This document shows, piece after piece, positions 6,105 through 64,000 of a DNA stretch of 64,000 nt (the stretch's first letter is position 1; every line of letters begins with the position of its first letter). This stretch comes from Tomocerus qinae (taxonomy: Eukaryota; Arthropoda; Collembola; Entomobryomorpha; Tomoceridae). The DNA is taken from positions 17,298,001 to 17,362,000 of the forward strand of contig CM034546.1 in assembly GCA_020055645.1 (NCBI GenBank), read 5' to 3'. Both the position numbers and the translations under genes were made by a program. The notes under the pieces were generated by a model. The model searched no databases. It had not been told where the DNA came from and was given only the letters and a program-made list of their open reading frames with translations.

Positions 6105-6177
6105 AAATAGTTCCATATTTTAAACTTTGCGATAGAGAATATAACTTTTAGTTCATACTATTGATAGTCTCACAAAA

Positions 6178-9958: not shown

Positions 9959-12861
9959 TATGTTTGGTTTTACCAATATTTTCGAAGGGTAACGTGGTTT
10001 ATTCTTTCGCTGACAAATGAAGACGATTCTGTGAATTTAATCTGGCCACAAACTACCGTATTAATCGATTTAGTTCCCCATATCGCAATAATTCCCCAGT
10101 TGAGGAACTAAATGAATAAATTTGGGAAAATATGACTCTCCAAATGTTTAGTTCCCCATATCGAAATAGTTCCCCATCCTAAAATCCTAAATTAAAGGCA
10201 TAAGAACCATAATATTATTATAAAATTCAAATCAGTGAATCTGCACTTAGCCAGTGCATATGTACCCAATCAGTGCATTTGTGCCAACCAGTGTACAAAA
10301 CACCATTTACCACTTATGATTGGTAAGTAGTTTTTAATGGTATTTAATGTTATTACCACCACCTAAACATTGGTGGTAAATAATATAATTGGTAAGAAAT
10401 GGTAAAAAATGGTTTTATATAAATTTCGTACAGAGTTTTGAATAAAATTCCACCCTAACACCGTTGCAGCTGACGATTGTTGTCCTAAATTGATTGCACA
10501 ACTTAATAAGTGTTAATAAATCCATTACCAATTTATGGAATAATTAATTTTAATTAAATGAGTACTTTTTCTAATTAAATGAAAGTTGGCTGTATAACAA
10601 GCGAATAATGTCGTTTAAACGACTGTTTCACTACTTCAGTGAACATTCGAATATAAATCTTAATTACTTATATTTTAGAGAAAATAGAGCATGAAAACCT
10701 ACTTTAATGCGTCGTTTGTGTATCACTATAACTTATCATTTTTACCATTAAATGCATTTTTACCACTGTGATGGTAAAAAAGGCTAAAAAAGTGGTAAAG
10801 TTTGTAAAGTAGAATGATGATGATGACGAAGAAATGGATATTGATTTAACCGAACCTATGGATGTATCTCTATCATTTGACGACGACGTTGAAATCTTAA
10901 TTCCAAAATTTCAACTAATATCATTCACTATATTTGCAATTTAATTCTGCATTGCAATAATACAAAAATTTGACAGAAATTTTTTATTTTGCCATTCGAA
11001 ATATAGTTCCCCATATCATAATAATTCCCCATGTGGGGAACTATAAGAATATTTTTGAGGAAAAAATGGTCTCCAAATGGGAGTTCCCCTGGGGAACTAA
11101 ATCGATTAATACGGTAATCAGAATGACGTTGAGTCGTTTTCTCTATTCACAATTTGTTCCCATAAACATTGCCTAGATCAACCATTTCGTGACAAACTGA
11201 TAAAATACATGGTTGAGAAAAGCGGATTTCTAAATACATTTGTGAATATAGCCGGTGGGAGGCATACGAATACTCTGAACAATATCAATCCTACAAAGCA
11301 TACTGTGGACCACCACTTCATAAAGCTTATTTCACAAATACTGTCTTTGTCAATAATGGACTTCCTCTTACGCGATTCTTTTCATTATTTTTGAAAGATA
11401 TCAAAATTCCACATTAGCTATGAACAGTCGAGAAGAGGTTTGTTATGGAAAGACAAGCAAAGTTTCGTTTTATATGCAATTGAGTTATAAAACCAATATT
11501 GATCATGATCCTTATTTAACAATGATGCCTACCATGGAGGAATCCTACAATTTCATTTCTTGTGTCGTTTTGGAAGATGAGAGTCTCTCCTTCTATGGAT
11601 ATATTAAACCCTTTGAACCTTATGCTTGGCTCGGCTTGATTGTTACAGTTTCTGTTGCAGTTGCTTTCGTCCATGGAGTAGTGTATTGGAAGAAAGAGGA
11701 AAGTATTCCATTTCTAATGATTTGTTATGCATATATCTTGGAAGTCAGTTATTCGCTCTCAGCCAAAGCAGATAAAACACTCTGGCTCAAGTTGGTCATT
11801 GGTCCGTTGTTGCTCATGTTCATCGTATTGACCAACGGATACAAAGGAATTGTCATCACGGATTTAGTTGAGCCACGCCCAGTCAAACAAATTGAATCTA
11901 TTGAACAACTGGCAAATCTCCGTGATATAAATGTTATTTCGACGACGAAACATGGTCACGACTTTGATCCTTTTCATGTCTCTTTAATCACATTAATTAT
12001 TACGCTACAGACATATTACCGTAACTGCTTGCGCATGAAAAACCTGGGCACATTTCCTTTCAACTTAACTTATTGCGAAGAAAAACTTCGAAAATATGAA
12101 AATTTTTCCACCGATTTTGAATATGATGTCAAAGATCAAAAAATATTAGAAAATTCCTTTCAGAACTTTGACGCAGAGCTACTTGATCGTCATTTTGGGT
12201 TTAGAATGACTTTTAACATAAATGGATTTCTAAATGCCAAAACGAAACAAATGTTAATGAAAATTAGGGAAATGGTTCGATTTCCTCCAGGATTTCCTTA
12301 TGCAATGACTCCTCACAGTTGGATTGCAAAATGCAACAATTCTGTTCTAATTATTCAGAGTTCCATTCTCCACCGACTTTTGAACGACTCCTACTGGAAT
12401 CCTCAGATTGGCGGAGTTCAACCGATTAAAAAGTTATACCGTGGAAAGGAAGAAGATGCAATTCTATTGACTTCTCTTTATACGGCATTTTTATCTGGAA
12501 ATGTTCCAATGCTAACTCCATTCCTAAGGCGTAATTTATTTGTTTTATGTCACTCAGGACTTTTTGATAAATGGTTGGAATATTACAAGAGATGGAATTT
12601 CACAGAATGCAAAACTTGCTGGTTGAGGGATCCACCGAGGGCTTTGACATTTTACAACTCAAATATAGGGACGATCTTTTATATTTTTATCATTGGGATT
12701 AATATACAGTACTGCCTTAACGTGGGAAAATCGGGTGTCTCTGAAGAAAACTTTCGTAGAAATTGTTTTTATTTTATTGAAATCCGCAAAAAAATTTAAA
12801 AGCAAAATTTTTGTATTTATTTTATAATTTTTCTCGTCAACAGTGTCCTACGTCATTATAA
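9959..12861 (+). pseudogene. IR pseudogene, array unit 2
   Basis: Copy of the intact IR from codon 182 onward. The first 544 coding bases are absent. A 1,059-bp transposon interrupts it at 10056-11114. A +2 insertion near 11370 (CTTACGCGATTC for CTTATGATTC) shifts the frame, and an ATG at 11420 reopens the frame through M1, M2 and S2. Unit-specific lesions are two extra G's near 11257 and a missing T near 12678, which replaces M3 with an unrelated tail. Confidence 0.9.
10056..11114. mobile_element. Non-autonomous DNA transposon with TA target duplication, unit 2 copy
   Basis: A 24-25 bp perfect terminal inverted repeat starts CCGTATTAATCGATTTAGTT and runs into CCCC. TA flanks both ends, and the empty site is the TA at 6816-6817 of the intact gene. 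TA duplication fits the Tc1/mariner-like superfamily, but no transposase is seen. Subterminal repeats read AGTTCCCCATATC. Inside lies a diverged TGGTAAGTGG-rich repeat (10289-10545) and an acidic coding-like stretch (10813-10944). Confidence 0.9.
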
Positions 12862-37121: not shown

Positions 37122-38083
37122 GGATGCTATTTAATGGGACATTGAAGTAATTTAAAATGTCCCTGAATAATAATTTAAACGGTCATTTTTGAAGGTGTCC
37201 CTGCGAATAATTTAGAAAGCCCCTAAACAAAAATTTAAAATGTTCCTAATGTAAATGGTTGGGTTTTTAATATCTCTACTTTAAAAATATTTTTAAAACG
37301 TTAGATTCATTCCGCTTTCATCCGCTTTCATCCGGATTCCTCCGGATTCATCCGGATTCATCCGCTTTCATCCGGATTCATCCGCTTTCATTCGGATTCA
37401 TCCGCTTTCATTCGGATTCATCCGCTTTCATCCGGATTCATCCGTTTTCATCCGCTTTCATCCGGATTCATCCGTTTTCATCCGCTTTCATCCGGATTCA
37501 TCCGTTTTCATCCGGATTCATCCGTTTTCATCCGGATTCATCCGCTTTCATCCGGATTCACCCGCTTTCATCCGGATTCATCTGCTTTCATCCGGATTTA
37601 TCCGGTTTTCGCAAAAATAATCTTAACGTCTCAACAATGACCCCCAGCACAGTTAATAAATTTAAAGTATCGATCCTTTTCGTTGAAATTGTCTTTTGCA
37701 CATTCTAAACCTTTCGAAAATTAGGTAGCAAGAAATAACTAAAAAGTTTGGGAAAGAAACTCCCAACATACTTTTATAAATTAAACTTGAATCCGGATGA
37801 ATCCGGATGAAAGCGGATGAGTCCGGATGAATTCGGATGAATCCTCTGCTCTGAAAGCCCTGCCGTTTTACAGAAACGAAAACGGACTCACTTTGGGAAT
37901 CTAACGTTTTAAAAATATTTTTAAAGTAGAGATATCAAAAACCCAACCATTTACATTAGGGACATTTTAAATTTTTGTTTAGTGACTTTCTAAATTATTT
38001 GCAGGGACACCTTCAAAAATGACCGTTTAAATTATTATTCAGGGACATTTTAAATTATTTCAGTTACCCATTAAATATATTCC
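37122..38083. mobile_element. Foldback / MULE-like element with internal 10-bp minisatellite
   Basis: Inverted arms of about 180 bp. The left arm starts GGATGCTATTTAATGGG; the right arm ends CCCATTAAATATATTCC. Direct repeats TTTGCTTAAT flank both ends (37112-37121 and 38084-38093). Long arms with a 9-10 bp target duplication are typical of Foldback or Mutator-like elements. No transposase is visible. Confidence 0.85.
37305..37606. repeat. Minisatellite of alternating TTCATCCGCT / TTCATCCGGA units
   Basis: About 30 tandem 10-mers, alternating so that a 20-bp higher-order unit appears, with TTCATTCGGA and TTCATCCGTT variants. A short inverted counterpart (units of GGATGAATCC / GGATGAAAGC) lies at about 37790-37851 on the other side of the foldback element's centre. 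Confidence 0.9.
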
Positions 38084-42290: not shown

Positions 42291-43363
42291 CCCTCACCGT
42301 CTCCCCAACCCCCACTACAGCCGGCTGTAGTGGTGGTGGGTCTGCGTTGGGGGCAGCCCGACGCAGACTAGACATCAAGAAGACCTATATCTTCTAGTGA
42401 ATCTTTTTGCAAACCGTGATACAATGTAAATTGATTGAGATAAAACTGATGTCTTGAAAAAAGTTTAACATTTAAAGAAATTCCACCTACTTTCTAAATA
42501 CTCGAATAAATTTTTGATAAAGCAGTCTTTTTGCATTTTTCCTACTTTGATGCATAGTTATTTGCCCCATTTACCAAAACTTTACACATAAACAATTACA
42601 AAAAAGGAAACCACCAAAAATTTACTGATTTTTTAAAGGCGGTACTTCTCTTGCTTTTTTTGTAAAAATGGAGTTGCTTTTTTGCTCTCTGACACATGAC
42701 TACGATAATATTATAATCATAATATTTATTGACTTATTTTGACAAGTAACAGTATCAAATAATGCTAACATATTACCTAAGACTTAATATTTCGTGCTCA
42801 TTATTGGTAAATAATTATCATTAGAAAGCATTTTATGTTTTCATTATTTGTCATTTTTGAACACCATATTTCAATTTTCCTTTCTTAAGCTTCACCAAGG
42901 AGAAATTGACTATGGTCCCTTCTCATTTACAAAAAATTTGGTATTTATTGAGAGTTATGGTCAAAGTAAGTAAGAACGAGCAATACTTAACGTCGTCTAA
43001 TGTTTTCAATATATTGTAAAATAATTTTGATTATGTAAATTGCAGATGTCTTTAGACCAAAATCACAATTCAATTAATTGAATATAGTAAATAGATTACA
43101 AATATGGCTTCTTGCTGGTGGGCAAACCAGGATCTGCTTTCGAGGACCTAACCTGACCTAATTAAAACAATGACATTGATAATTTACGATTTTCCCTCTG
43201 CCTTACTCGCGAGCCGCAAATTTATATTTAAGGATATCGCCTATCAACTTATAATAATGTCACCAGCTGTAGATCACGTATTGAGATTAATTTCATCGGT
43301 AAACAGTTATTATATACAAAAGTTTGATGCCTAAGCGTGTTCAAATGTAAAGCAAAATCACAG
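42291..43363. other. Intergenic region with a short GC-rich palindrome
   Basis: CACTACAGCCGGCTGTAGTG at about 42313-42332 is a perfect palindrome, followed by an imperfect inverted GTCTGCGT / ACGCAGAC pair. The rest is AT-rich with no gene seen. Confidence 0.5.
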
Positions 43364-43368
43364 TACTG

Positions 43369-43702
43369 CACAGTGTTGCAGCAAGCTGCCTCAAACGGGC
43401 GTCAGGAAAAGAGGGGGCTGAGCTTAACTTTGAATGTTCCTATACTACTAATGCTAAATATGCGATTTTAAAATCGCTATATCTAACGCTACGAACGCAG
43501 CCGGCCCTTATAATTAATACGTATTCCTAATTCGAATGTAACGGTTCGAATGATGTATATGTCAATGCTCTCTGTCGATAGTGTCTATATTAAAAATGAA
43601 TTCGAAAAATTAGAATAGGATTTTCAATGTAAAATTCAAACGGAAAAGAGAGCGAACTCAGCTTTTAGACGCCCGTTTGAGGCAGCTTGCTGCAACACTG
43701 TG
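43369..43702. mobile_element. Transib-like non-autonomous transposon (CACAGTG ends, 5-bp target duplication)
   Basis: 334 bp with perfect inverted repeats of about 35 bp starting CACAGTGTTGCAGCAAGCTG. TACTG flanks both sides (43364-43368 and 43703-43707). A diverged duplicate of the flanks, inverted at about 47400-47460, reads straight through with a single TACTG, so it is an empty site. A CACWRTG-type heptamer start and 5-bp duplications are hallmarks of Transib and RAG-family transposons. No transposase is present. Confidence 0.82.
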
Positions 43703-43859
43703 TACTGGTAGTGTAGTCAACATAAAACGAAACGGAGATTGATATGTTCCAGGAAGTGTGTAAAGACTGGACGGATCAAAATTTTGGTTTTCATTTTACA
43801 TATATCCTAGGCATTTTGCTGATGTCCGCTCTGTACAAAATTTTCTGTAACAGATATAA

Positions 43860-45914: not shown

Positions 45915-46957
45915 TATATGTTAACGGCAATAAGTAAATTCAGGCATTAAGCTTAATGCCTAGGCAATAAGCTTAATGCCTAAAAATGCCCGGCATTAAG
46001 CTTAATGCCTAGTCTTTAAGCTTAATGCCTTGGCTTTAAGCTTAATGCCTGAATTTTACACGGCATTAAGCTTTATGCCTGGTCTTATTGCCTGATTTGA
46101 TTGGAAATCAATGTAAATAGAAAAAATTTAAGTCTTATATACACATTCGATGTGTATTTATGTAAAATGTAAATGTACACGGTTAGGGTTAGTCATTTAA
46201 ACAATATGGGATATTTAAATGTATTTTAATTTCATAAATTTTATTAATTAATGCTCAATGTTACCACCTCCTCCAATCGGATTTCCCAATAGAGTTGCAT
46301 TGGAGATGCTAGGATTTCTGATCTAAATGTGAAGAAATGACTCCACGAGATAACAATAGAATTAGGACACAGGCAAATCTATAAGTTTATAGTTTATTTA
46401 AATGAAATATGATCGATCCGATTTACTCTAAAATACTGAGGTAAATTATAATATTAGTGACGTGGTAGTGGTGATTACGTGGGTAGCGTTGAGCTAATGA
46501 TGATGGCACTCCTCATAAGTCATTGGCCAGCCCTGAGTATGGATAAATAAAGATGACAATTTTTGACGATTGATATTTTTCCTTTGGAGACACTTTAAAT
46601 CACGCATTTACCAGACCTAGCATTTTTGTAAAATTTATGAAATTAAAATACATTTAAATATCCCATATTGTTTTAAATGACTAACCCTAACCGTGTACAT
46701 TTACATTTTACATAAATACACATTGACTGTGTATATTAGACTTAAATTTCTTCTATTTACATTGATTTCCAATCAAATCAGGCAATAAGACCAGGCATTA
46801 AGCTTAATGCCGTGTAAAATTCAGGCATTAAGCTTAAAGCCTAGGCATTAAGCTTAAAGACTAGGCATTAAGCTTAATGCCGGGCATTTTTAGGCATTAA
46901 GCTTATTGCCTAGGCATTAAGCTTAATGCCTGAATTTACTTATTGCCGTTAACATAT
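45915..46957. mobile_element. Long-inverted-repeat element with arms made of a 20-bp palindrome array
   Basis: Inverted arms of about 325 bp (45915-46245 and 46630-46957), nearly identical, starting TATATGTTAACGGCAATAAG. Each arm contains five to six copies of the palindrome AGGCATTAAGCTTAATGCCT or one-base variants. It interrupts duplicate copy B; copy A near 41445-41460 is unbroken. The flanks are TA-rich, so the exact ends and target duplication (possibly TA) are uncertain. No coding sequence. Confidence 0.85.
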
Positions 46958-47177: not shown

Positions 47178-48295
47178 AGTCAACCAATAGACAAATAAAT
47201 AAATTTCCTATTTTGTAAAAAGACCTGGAACCATTAACCATGGAATAAACATGGAAAATAATGGCATTGGAAGGTGAATGTACAATGAGACATCAGAATT
47301 AAGATTTAAATTATTTAAAAGTAGAACCTGAAATCGATTTGATACCAACTATCTCAACTATACTTAACTATAAGCTTCTACTATATAAACGTATCGCTTT
47401 GTAATGACTAGACTACCAGTACTGATTTTGCTTTACATTTCATCACGCTTAGTAATCAAAAATTAGTCTACTAAATAGTCAACGGTGTATTGATGAAATT
47501 CCTAGCAATAGATGCGCAGTAGCTAGAAATTTACTTATATCAACATTTTTCTAGCACACTGTACTGTGCTAGGTCAGCAGCTAGTATTTTATATGGCAAC
47601 ATTCCTAAATGCTAAATGAATCAGAAATACGACATTGTACGATGCGTTTATTAGAAGACATTGGTTTAGCTTCTGGGATTTAAATAATTATTTAAAGACC
47701 AAGGAGAAATCGATTCGATATACACTGTCACCATGTCAATTTAATTTACACTGTGTGGATTATTTTTCCTTTTCTAAACTTCCCTATTTACTGCAATGCC
47801 GTAAGCATAATTCTCAATTTAGCAAAACCTTATCTTGGTGATGGAGAACACAATTCTTGAGAATCTTTAGGAGGAGAATTTCTTGAAGGGTGAGAGTGCA
47901 AAATGTCAAAGATGAGCCTACTTTAGATGAGGGTGAAATAAGACTAGGTTGGCCAGCAAAGTGTAACTCTAGAATCAATTTATTTACAAGGAGAGTGATA
48001 GTGTTTCAGAGGACAGCAGAATTGCAAGTGTCATAATTCACTCTTAAAGGTGTAGGGAAGTAGGGTTACTTATAACAAAGGGATGACACATTTTAACTTT
48101 CATTCAACGAGTTTTATCAACCCAAAGTCTCATACATTCAAATTTCCATGCAGCTTCAAAAGAATAAATATGCAGTTAATTCTCTAGGAGTCATACATAC
48201 TTATAGACTCATATATTTTCAGAATTTCAGCCCAAAAGTTCAATACATCTAGGTCAGGCCCGTTAAACCGAGGCACTACGTTAAACCGCACCGTA
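47178..48295. repeat. Duplicate segment copy B (right part) and intergenic DNA
   Basis: 47178-47345 and 47615-47700 match copy A (41460-41660, 41840-41900). 47400-47460 is an inverted duplicate of the Transib-element flank (empty site). From 47700 to 48295 nothing recognisable was seen. Confidence 0.55.
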
Positions 48296-49771: not shown

Positions 49772-51470
49772 ATGGCTCGTTTGCGGTAAGATCTTATATT
49801 TATTGTTTTTTTGAAAATTGTATAATTGTTGTATCTGCATAAAAGACAATCATTATTAAATGATTATATTTAAAGTATACATTTAAAGGCAAGGAAAAGA
49901 CAGGATGAAGGTAATATTTTTCTAGTTTTTCAAATAATTCAAATAATCTTTATAAATTCTGAAAAATGTACTCACATAATAACCTGTATGATATGTTTAA
50001 TGTATAATATCAAATTCTGTCGTTAACAGATATCCTTGTCTGCTTCTATGCACTGTATCAATGGCTATTACTAACGGAATAATGGAAGAGCTAATAAGCG
50101 AAAATAACAACCCGCCAAATGTTGAAACTAAACATTCACCGTCAGCCGAGGTTAAACATATATCAATCAAATCAGAAAACACCAATGTCCAAATATCTGC
50201 ACTAGAAGATATAAAAACCGAAGTAAATGCTAAAACGGAAAATTTGGCCGTCGTTGAGAACTCTGATACCCCGGGGAAATATCCCACTTCTTCTTCCAGT
50301 TTGACTTCAAAATCTCCTCCAGTTCATTCTACTGGTTGGGCACCACATTTTCCATCAACTTCAGGTTGGACATTAAATTCTTGCAAATACAACCCTGATT
50401 GCAGAGCGACGGACAATAACTGCTGTAAATGCAATCAAGATTCTGCAAAATGCTGTTCCAACTACTTTACCAGCACCAACGAAGGTTTCTGCCATAAGAA
50501 CAGTTGTAAGCCTTGCAAATCTCCAGGCAGTTACTGCGCTAGTTCAAACCAATGCTGTAATAGTCAAAATCCCGACAGCCAGAATATAATAACTTGCATC
50601 AATAACGTTTGCTGCGTGACTCCAAATTCAGCCGGCTGTGTCAAAGACGCTGATTGCTGCCAGCCCCTAGATGCCTTTTCAGGCTATCAATGTGTTAATA
50701 ACCAATGCAAACCTTGCAAGAATAATCAACAAAGCTGTACTTCTGATTCGGATTGTTGTGGACAGAACTCTTGTGGTTATACCCTAAGTATAGACGGTGA
50801 CTACAATCGATACGGCATTTGCTGTGTCCCGCCTGCAGCTGAGTGCCGGGTGGGAGTTGACATTTGCTGTGACTCTTCAAAATGTTCGGGAGGAACCCGG
50901 ACGAATAAGCGGTACACTTGCATCCAGAATCGCTCGAGTAAGTTATCCGACAATTCTTCGACTACAGATTCTCAAAGAGTGGATAGTAGTGGCTTGGACG
51001 GAAGAGGCGAGTGGGATAGCCAAAGCCAGAATAAAGGTGGATTGGGAAACAGCGGAGGATGGACATTCGACCCAATTGAAAAAGTTCCTCAGATTTACAT
51101 CCTAGGAACTTGCAAGGAATGCGTAAAAATTGGTTCTTGTAGCATTAGTACCGACTGTTGTCCTGGCTTCATGTGTCGACAGGAAAGATGCACTGCTGTA
51201 CCGGATGAATTGTGCGACACGTGTATAACTGTAGATGGCCCATGTAGTAGTCCTGAGGACTGTTGTGACGATAGTCCATACTGTTCTGACGGAATATGCG
51301 CTATATGCAGTGGTATCTATAATATGTGTCAAGTTACGTCGGATTGTTGTAGTGGCCTATTTTGTGGCGGGATATTTTGTATAGCCTGCGGTGTACAAAA
51401 TGACCCATGTGAAACAAGTTTCAGTTGTTGCGAACAATTATCTTGTAATGGTACTAATTGCGTTAACTAA
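49772..51470 (+). CDS. Secreted poly-knottin (multi-module cysteine-rich) protein
   Basis: Exon 1 is only 14 nt (49772-49785, ATGGCTCGTTTGCG then GTAAGA); exon 2 is 50030-51470 after TTAACAG. The joined frame gives 484 residues and creates a signal peptide that the internal ATG at 50061 would lack; this decides the start. Residues about 20-115 are acidic and Ser/Thr/Pro-rich. Then follow cysteine modules, a Ser/Gly-rich linker of about 60 residues, and four further modules. The last modules fit C-x5/6-C-x5-CC-x4/5-C-x4-C, the cystine-knot spacing. Secretion is likely; a coating, silk-like or defence role is possible but unproven. No enzyme motif is seen. AATAAA lies at 51607. The gene at 55880 is its paralog, and orphan exons at 37056 and 41908 are dead ones. 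Confidence 0.85.
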
Positions 51471-61869: not shown

Positions 61870-63599
61870 TCTTTGTTATTATTGGAATTTTCTTCACTTA
61901 TGAAATTATGAGTTTAAATACCATTGAATATTTATTTATAGATGTCTTTTTGTGCTTCTGCTACGGTTGACGGCTGCAAGAAGTGAAAAATTAGTAGAAA
62001 ACCTTACAGATGAAAATCAATTCAAACCGGTAATAGCTCGAATTGAATTTCCAATATCAAATGTTAGAAATGACGCAAACATGGTTGCGGCTAAAAATCG
62101 GGAGATTTTAGGGGATGAAAATACAGAAATAAATCCCGAAAAGGAACATTCTGAGGTAGCAAAGAATTCTGAAACCCCTGATGAAGCTGTGAAAACATCT
62201 TTGACCGTTTCTGTTAACCAGCACCTTGTTATTTCTCTTGGGTGGCCATCAAATTCTAATGCACCGCTTTCCGTCAGCGTGAAACCGAATTCTCCTTCTA
62301 CATCTGGAAATAAACCGAATCCCAGCACAGTTTGGACGCCGGCTCAATTCACCTTCGGTTGGAATTCAAAACCTTGTAAATACAACACTAATTGCATTAC
62401 TCCAGATTGCTGTAAAATGCAACCATGATTACCTCAAAATGCTGCATTCAAACGATATTCCCCGTACCGATGAAGGTTTCTGTCAAAATGACAGGTGCAG
62501 AGCATCTGCAAATCTCTGGCAGTTATTGCGCCAGTTCAACAAACCAATGTTGTAACAGCCGTAATCCAAATATTAGGAGATTGATTACGACTTGCATGAA
62601 CAAGAAGTTTGCTGCGTTGTTCCACGTTCCGTGGGTTGTGTCAATGATGCCGATTGCTGTCAGCTTCACTTGATATCATTTTAGGCTTCTCAGTGTGTTA
62701 ATAAATATTGTAAACCTTGCAAAAAAATCAACAAACCTGTACTACTTGAATCTCGGAGTGTTGTGGGTCTAAACTCTTGTGGAAACACACTAACCAACAG
62801 TGATATGGATGACTACGATCGATATGGCATCTGCTGCTTGCCCCCAAAAAGCTGATTGTCAGGTTGGGAAAAGGACATTTGCTGTGATTCGTGGAAGTGT
62901 GAGCAACAATCCCAAAAGAAATTCGATAATAAAACGCTTCGCATGCATTAGAAATCTATCAACGAAAATATTCAGTTATGCTTTGACAGGACAATCAGAT
63001 TACGTAAACAAAGCTTCCATTTTTGGAACTTGCACAGAGTGCACTGAAAATTCTCCATGCGTAACTAGTGAAGACTGTTGTAGTGGCTACATGTGTCAAC
63101 TAGGAAAATGCTCTGATGTTCCAAATAATTCATGTAACAATTGTATAACTGAGGGTAACTCATGTACTGCTAAATCGACATGTTGTACCAACCTCATGTG
63201 TGTAGACGCAGCATGTTGCACAACATCCGGTAGCGCCTGCACTTCAAATTCTACATGTTGTGGTACCAGCACTTGTATTGGAAATATTTGCTCTCCATGT
63301 TTAAATCGACGTGGTACATGTACTGATAACACAAACTGCTGTGATGGTCTCACATGTATTGAAGGGGAATGTTGCAAACAAATCGGTAATTCATGCACAT
63401 TATCTTCGGAATGTTGTGGCTCCAACACATGTAATGGTGGTGTTTGCTCCCCTTGTTTAACACAACGTGGTACATGTACTGATAATTCAAACTGCTGTGA
63501 TGGTCTCGCTTGTGTTGAAGGAGAATGCTGCAAGCAAAACAGCAGTAAATCCTGCACATTATCTTCGGAATGTTGTGGCCCCAATACATGTGTAATAAT

Positions 63600-64000
63600 G
63601 GTGTTTGCCTCATGTGCCCCTGCAAAATGCTGTGTGTACAACTTCTGCAAACTGCTGTAGTGGTCTGTCATGTGGACGGAGGAATATGTTGTAATAATCA
63701 ACTGCAATGGCTGCACAACAAATACGAAATGTTGTGGCACCAGCACCTGTGACATAATGTGGTGTTTGCTCATGTGCCCCTCAAAATGCTGTGTGTACAA
63801 CTTCTGCAAACTGCTGTAGTGGTCTGTCATGTGACGGAGGAATATGTTGTACACCAACTGGTAATGGCTGCACAACAAATACGAAATGCTGTGGCACCAG
63901 CACCTGTACTAGCTATGTTTACTCCTGTGCCCCTCAAAATGCCGTGTGTACAACTTCTGCAAACTGCTGTAGTGGTCTGTCAAAAGACGGAGGAATATGT
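63600..64000 (+). repeat. Tandem cysteine-module repeats of about 159 bp at the window end
   Basis: GTGCCCCTCAAAATGC-type starts recur at 63614, 63774 and 63927 (spacing 160 and 153), each followed by TGTACAACTTCTGCAAACTG. 159 bp is 53 codons, about two cysteine modules. The array is cut by the window edge. Confidence 0.8.

Follow-up and report, generated by a model that had tools for sequence, protein, structure and literature searches.

What kind of mobile element has left a short, gene-less insertion with perfectly inverted ends bearing the heptamer CACAGTG, and how did it come by two identical ends? The question arises at positions 43369-43702 of the window, as we call the whole analysed stretch of 64,000 nt (C1:17298001-17362000), where a 334-bp element is bounded by terminal inverted repeats of 35 nt each, located at 43369-43403 (plus strand) and 43668-43702 (minus strand). 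The two arms are 100% complementary and carry the tips CACAGTG (5') and CACTGTG (3'), and when the letters of the element were shuffled 20,000 times, no arm longer than 6 bp arose at the ends, versus 35 bp in the real sequence. Between the arms lies a body at 43404-43667 (plus strand), and the element is non-coding, its longest stop-free frame having 53 codons. The 5-bp sequence TACTG is duplicated on both sides (43364-43368 and 43703-43707, plus strand). The CACAGTG ends, the perfect inverted repeats of about 35 bp and the two TACTG copies had all been described in the initial annotation, and they were confirmed. That annotation also assigned the element, by inference, to the Transib/RAG lineage; the Transib group has a relative in the enzyme behind antibody-gene rearrangement.

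The flanks show directly that TACTG arose by insertion. Left (43323-43363) and right (43708-43719) of the element, on the plus strand, lies one and the same dispersed repeat, interrupted by the insertion, and an uninserted copy of it is found at 47405-47460 on the minus strand with a single TACTG at 47417-47421. Compared with the joined flanks, 51 of the 56 ungapped columns of this empty site are equal, the alignment running across the junction with one TACTG, and a wider alignment of the site scored 98, whereas none of 281 other window positions compared exceeded 31. The filled site has two extra bases directly left of TACTG (CACAG versus CAG). The query with the empty site yielded 40 scored matches, the site itself included, from 177 first-look candidates, and the other 39 have 85-94% identity over 75-99 bp; with so many matches at this level the flank is therefore a dispersed repeat and not just a local duplicate. 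Fourteen of the 39 (L120-L133) were fetched and read: the insertion point is read through without the element in all of them, making 15 uninserted copies together with the one at 47.4 kb, and three of the 14 have TACTA where the others have TACTG. Of the earlier description of an empty site at 47400-47460, the read-through with a single TACTG stood, whereas its origin from a purely local inverted duplicate gave way to the dispersed repeat in view of the 40 scored matches and 14 uninserted copies. The repeat, as seen at window positions 47390-47480 and in L120-L133, has a conserved core around AATGTAAAGCAAAATCAGTACTGGTAGTCTAGTC.

The window holds several further repeats. A tandem array with a unit of about 4.3 kb occupies 6145-34446 (frame starts at 11357, 15654, 19950, 24246, 28553 and 32850); its unit contains an open frame of receptor-like type that is interrupted in some of the repeats, and the 804-aa frame at 6145 has the same sequence. 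Judged by eye, the frame looks like an ionotropic-receptor gene, and Pfam returned no match for the two frames of the array that were tested. At 37317-37608, 14.6 copies of a 20-bp minisatellite unit (TTCATCCGCTTTCATCCGGA) lie inside a 145-aa repetitive open frame, for which Pfam likewise gave no match. Two arrays built from a palindromic unit of 20 bp (AGGCATTAAGCTTAATGCCT), with a higher period of 69 bp, are present at 45942-46086 and 46787-46931, their starts 845 bp apart. Two long open frames rich in cysteine, in which CC motifs recur, are present at 50001-51470 and 62794-63660, the first of them without a Pfam match.

The genome (334 Mb, 115 contigs) was screened for relatives of the element. 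BLAST gave 148 candidates, the best 40 of which were scored, and a 35-bp pattern from the body, allowing for up to three mismatches, was located at 72 places genome-wide and at none in the control. With a length of about 330 bp, no coding capacity and many copies (the 72 body-pattern places), the family has the features of a MITE. We examined 74 copies, namely the 40 BLAST copies and 34 body-pattern places outside those 40, for flank repeats of 2-11 bp, with copy ends allowed to shift by up to 3 bp to reach CAC/GTG. An exact duplication was present in 42 of the 74 and its length, the longest repeat in each of these copies, was 5 bp every time; the other 32 had no exact duplication, and no other length occurred. 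The length over all copies, which had been proposed as a check on the lineage, is thus uniform among the exact duplications. When flanks were mispaired between copies, the longest match was 5 bp in 44 of 5,402 pairings. Thirty-seven of the 42 calls rest on the best reference alone, and for the remaining five (L010, L012, L110, L111 and L117) the ends were set with a second-choice reference, chosen because the repeat appeared with it. L110 and L111 have common flanks and count as one insertion, and the left flank of L014 is the same as that of L010. Three of the copies without exact repeat (L024, L069 and L086) have flanking 5-mers agreeing at four of five bases. Over 34 duplications the commonest letters at positions 1 to 5 were C (21), A (18), G (15), T (24) and G (28), that is, a target preference near CANTG. 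Transib elements prefer CASTG, to which the duplications found here are close.

The tips of the family resemble the CACWRTG ends of Transib, being kept in their first three bases and loosely beyond: CAC is found at 42/42 5' tips and 41/42 3' tips of the copies with a duplication, where ends could be shifted by up to 3 bp to CAC/GTG, and the commonest 3' tip is CACTATC (18 of 42). Two of the 42 copies, the window copy and L028, have CACAGTG at both tips. Apart from the window copy, the two ends of a copy have little in common beyond the tip. At the 5' end we distinguished the types 5T and 5G, and at the 3' end the types 3A, 3B, 3B2 and 3C. Among the 42 copies with a duplication, 17 pair 5T with 3A, 20 pair 5G with 3B, 3B2 or 3C and three are unclassified at one end, a matching of ends that owes much to common descent and does not represent 37 independent events; L009 (5T+3B) and the window copy (5T+5T) account for one copy each. 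All classified copies other than the window copy have unlike 5' and 3' ends. The 3' arm of the window copy is an inverted copy of its own 5' end, of the 5T type, and stands in place of the usual 3' end of the family; such a 5' type at the 3' end was seen in this copy alone among the 74, in 24 of which the 3' end is unclassifiable. A genome-wide search for the like-ended junction at up to three mismatches gave one match, besides the element's own 5' end at three mismatches, and no like-ended copies beyond the window copy. On these comparisons the strict, perfect inverted repeat appears to be peculiar to the window copy.

The sequence of the window copy suggests how this may have come about. Its positions 46-290 are 95-96% identical to the 5G copies L011, L012, L013 and L016 (90.6% to L018, also 5G) and 88-89% identical to the 5T copies L022, L025 and L028, while its first 45 bp are closest to L009 (97.8%), followed by the 5T copy L028 (95.6%). 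Over the first 300 positions the window copy and L009 differ at three, and they diverge directly after GACG, a microhomology that forms the start of the 3' arm (43668-43671) and sits at the switch in the inverted 5' end as well as in the ordinary 3' end. In the simplest history, a 5G element would have acquired a 5T end, giving a hybrid like L009 (5T/3B), and in such a hybrid an inverted copy of the 5' end would have taken the place of the 3' end, probably when repair of a break switched template at GACG. The element would then most likely have transposed in its like-ended form and inserted at TACTG. Of this history we are less sure than of the assignment to Transib discussed below.

The main competing account, which we consider unlikely but worth weighing, is that an ordinary or hybrid copy inserted and its 3' end was converted in place later, so that the like-ended form never transposed. 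It would agree with the presence of this form here only, as found in the genome search at up to three mismatches, and because the former tip (as in L009) and its replacement both have GTG, switching back right at the tip could have occurred. However, since the right-hand TACTG is intact, the converted tract would need to end within these last 3 bp, sparing the duplication, and a longer tract would have brought in CAGTA, the left flank in inverted form. The single like-ended junction fits a cut-and-paste element that is gone from its donor site, and it also fits a change in place.

Transposases of the relevant class are encoded in the same genome. The Pfam RAG1 model pointed to five places, all under its cut-off, one of which falls inside an open frame of 623 aa (L030). 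In phmmer comparisons L030 matched HzTransib (6pqn) with an E-value of 2.6e-77, ProtoRAG (6b40) with 1.7e-9 and RAG1 (3jbw) with 7e-4. A genome search with the L030 transposase gave 56 matches from 54 candidates. The 782-aa open frame L048, for which Pfam gave no match and PDB sequence matches were used in its place, matched HzTransib 6pqn with an E-value of 4.4e-79. The catalytic residues of HzTransib are listed as D126, D225 and E436 in PMC6941560, and L030 and L048 both show D, D and E in alignment with them (PDB chain positions 109, 208 and 419, taken as offset by 17). Both are relatives; the transposase fragment of a third element, L037, spans the E part only. L030 is without 68-69 bp that are present in three close relatives, and its open frame therefore does not mean an intact protein. 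Three transposase frames of 782, 774 and 766 aa (C1:61062884-61064620, which is L048, C1:44603194-44604927 and C1:126718105-126719868) have no internal stops in their matched parts, and a simple tip scan found no element ends for them. In five of 16 merged transposase-bearing stretches we detected a tip pair alike at at least 9 of 16 bases together with an exact 5-bp duplication (AGTGG; TATTG, which is CAATA on the other strand; CAGGG; CAACG; CATGG), in a scan that demanded 5 bp and was therefore blind to other duplication lengths; the remaining 11 had no tip pairs or weak ones only.

One of these transposases is tied to the MITE family through the ends of its element. Within L037 (2,066 bp, duplication CAATA) lie 280 aa of a Transib transposase, its C-terminal half (E-value 2.2e-42 versus HzTransib 6pqn). 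The 5' tip of L037, CACTGTGTAGCATCAAGCTGCC, agrees with that of the L025-type copy, CACTGTGTTGCAGCAAGCTGCC, at 20 of 22 positions, and the comparison extends to 190 subterminal columns at 72.6% and to the 3' end at 85.7% over 21 columns. The first 22 bp of the 5' arm of the window copy agree with the 5' end of L037 at 19 positions (86%), with that of L065 at 91% and with that of L067 at 95%, and element positions 88-242 are 70% identical (70.3% over 155 columns) to the 3' subterminal part of L037. A query with part of L037 gave 64 matches, the best 40 of 74 candidates being scored, and led to L064-L067. Both ends of L037 are carried by L064 (1,097 bp, duplication CAGTG), and the 5' end of L067 (duplication CCTTG) is identical to that of the L025 type over all 22 positions; L064 and L067 are short non-autonomous relatives and L065 yielded a 5' end only. 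The other 5' type, AGGAGGAAAGCTG, is borne by L066, a decayed copy, and by a stretch at C1:84552434. An element bearing a transposase and sharing the body at high identity was not found: the link to L037 stands at about 70-73%, and among the 72 body-pattern places none comes within 53 kb of the 29 transposase places that were compared. Judging by the ends and subterminal sequence in common, the MITE family descends from Transib elements of this group. A transposase-encoding relative, for which the initial annotation had suggested a search, was thus found in the same genome by way of the ends and subterminal sequence of L037.

The proposed lineage is upheld by the 42 duplications, all of 5 bp, and by the Transib transposases in related elements, and we narrow it to Transib because L030 matches HzTransib far better than ProtoRAG or RAG1. 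The window element is almost certainly a non-autonomous (MITE-type) Transib transposon. Derivation from a RAG-like transposon (RAG1L-RAG2L, ProtoRAG-type) would account for the CAC tips and 5-bp duplications, which PMC7204232 gives as common to both groups, the 5-bp duplication holding for RAG as well as Transib transposition. Yet the transposases of L030, L048 and L037 match HzTransib much better than ProtoRAG or RAG1, and we regard a RAG-like origin as very improbable; as a candidate it was set aside on the L030 similarity. A search of the genome for RAG2 (PF03089) gave no match, and the controls of the same search were silent too.

Membership in the hAT superfamily, with CAGTG..CACTG as a hAT-like core and a true duplication of 8 bp, is an extremely improbable reading. 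CAGTG-like tips do occur in hAT elements, but all 42 exact duplications are of 5 bp and not 8, on which count this assignment was rejected, and an element with related ends (L037) bears a Transib transposase fragment. That the inverted repeats and the duplication are a product of chance or a simple palindrome has a vanishingly small probability, contradicted as it is by 35-bp perfect arms, the empty sites and a family whose copies elsewhere carry duplications of their own.

The gene-less window element, as a Transib MITE, would have depended for its movement on an enzyme supplied in trans, a Transib transposase belonging to the RAG1-like DDE class. If it acts as HzTransib and RAG do, this enzyme would nick at CAC, with hairpins forming on the flanks, and the element would be excised blunt-ended; both its 3' ends would then be joined to the target at positions 5 bp apart, hence a 5-bp duplication. 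The window element would have landed in this way at TACTG in a copy of the dispersed repeat. More tentatively, and with less than even confidence, we propose that the ends of this Transib family are exchangeable modules: a 5G/3B element may have taken the 5T end of another lineage (as in L009), then a second 5T end by inverted template switching, and transposed like-ended. If this is true, the Transib system here needs no pairing of unlike ends, and a MITE can, by swapping ends, come to respond to a different transposase. The locus offers a MITE family tied to Transib transposases of the same genome via duplications, ends and common sequence, with many empty sites. The window copy would be a natural like-ended Transib substrate, and together with its near-identical, unlike-ended sister L009 it is well suited to asking whether a RAG1-related transposase discriminates between the ends that it pairs, a question that underlies the origin of the 12/23 rule.

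With the V(D)J recombination signal sequence (RSS) the window copy has the CACAGTG tip in common, whereas the tip of the MITE family varies beyond CAC. The RSS carries a nonamer, with the consensus ACAAAAACC, at a spacer of 12 or 23 bp, but no 9-mer with at least six matches to it was found at spacers of 10-25 bp at either end of the element. An RSS with a nonamer was consequently dropped, and the canonical RSS heptamer of the initial annotation, accurate for the tips of the window copy, was overdrawn, with two of 42 copies having CACAGTG at both tips. The N in names such as Transib N1 stands for non-autonomous. Small elements of this kind include Transib N1, N2 and N3 of Anopheles gambiae, named in a figure legend of PMC8355894, and the Transib MITEs of Helicoverpa, described in PMC9033116 with lengths of 83-386 bp in H. 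armigera and 75-564 bp in H. zea and with 5-bp duplications; 5-bp duplicates are called typical of Transibs in PMC4411706. HzTransib of Helicoverpa zea has a 5-bp duplication like the window element, and its transposase is homologous to those of L030 and L048 with the D, D and E aligned; it is, however, an element of 3,518 bp with a gene (both from PMC1852546), while the window element is gene-less. By description, the window element is like the Helicoverpa MITEs in being short, with inverted repeats and a 5-bp duplication. Transib MITEs have been described before, from moths, and the window copy is an ordinary member of this known group apart from what sets it against the small elements of both Helicoverpa and Anopheles gambiae, its two like ends.
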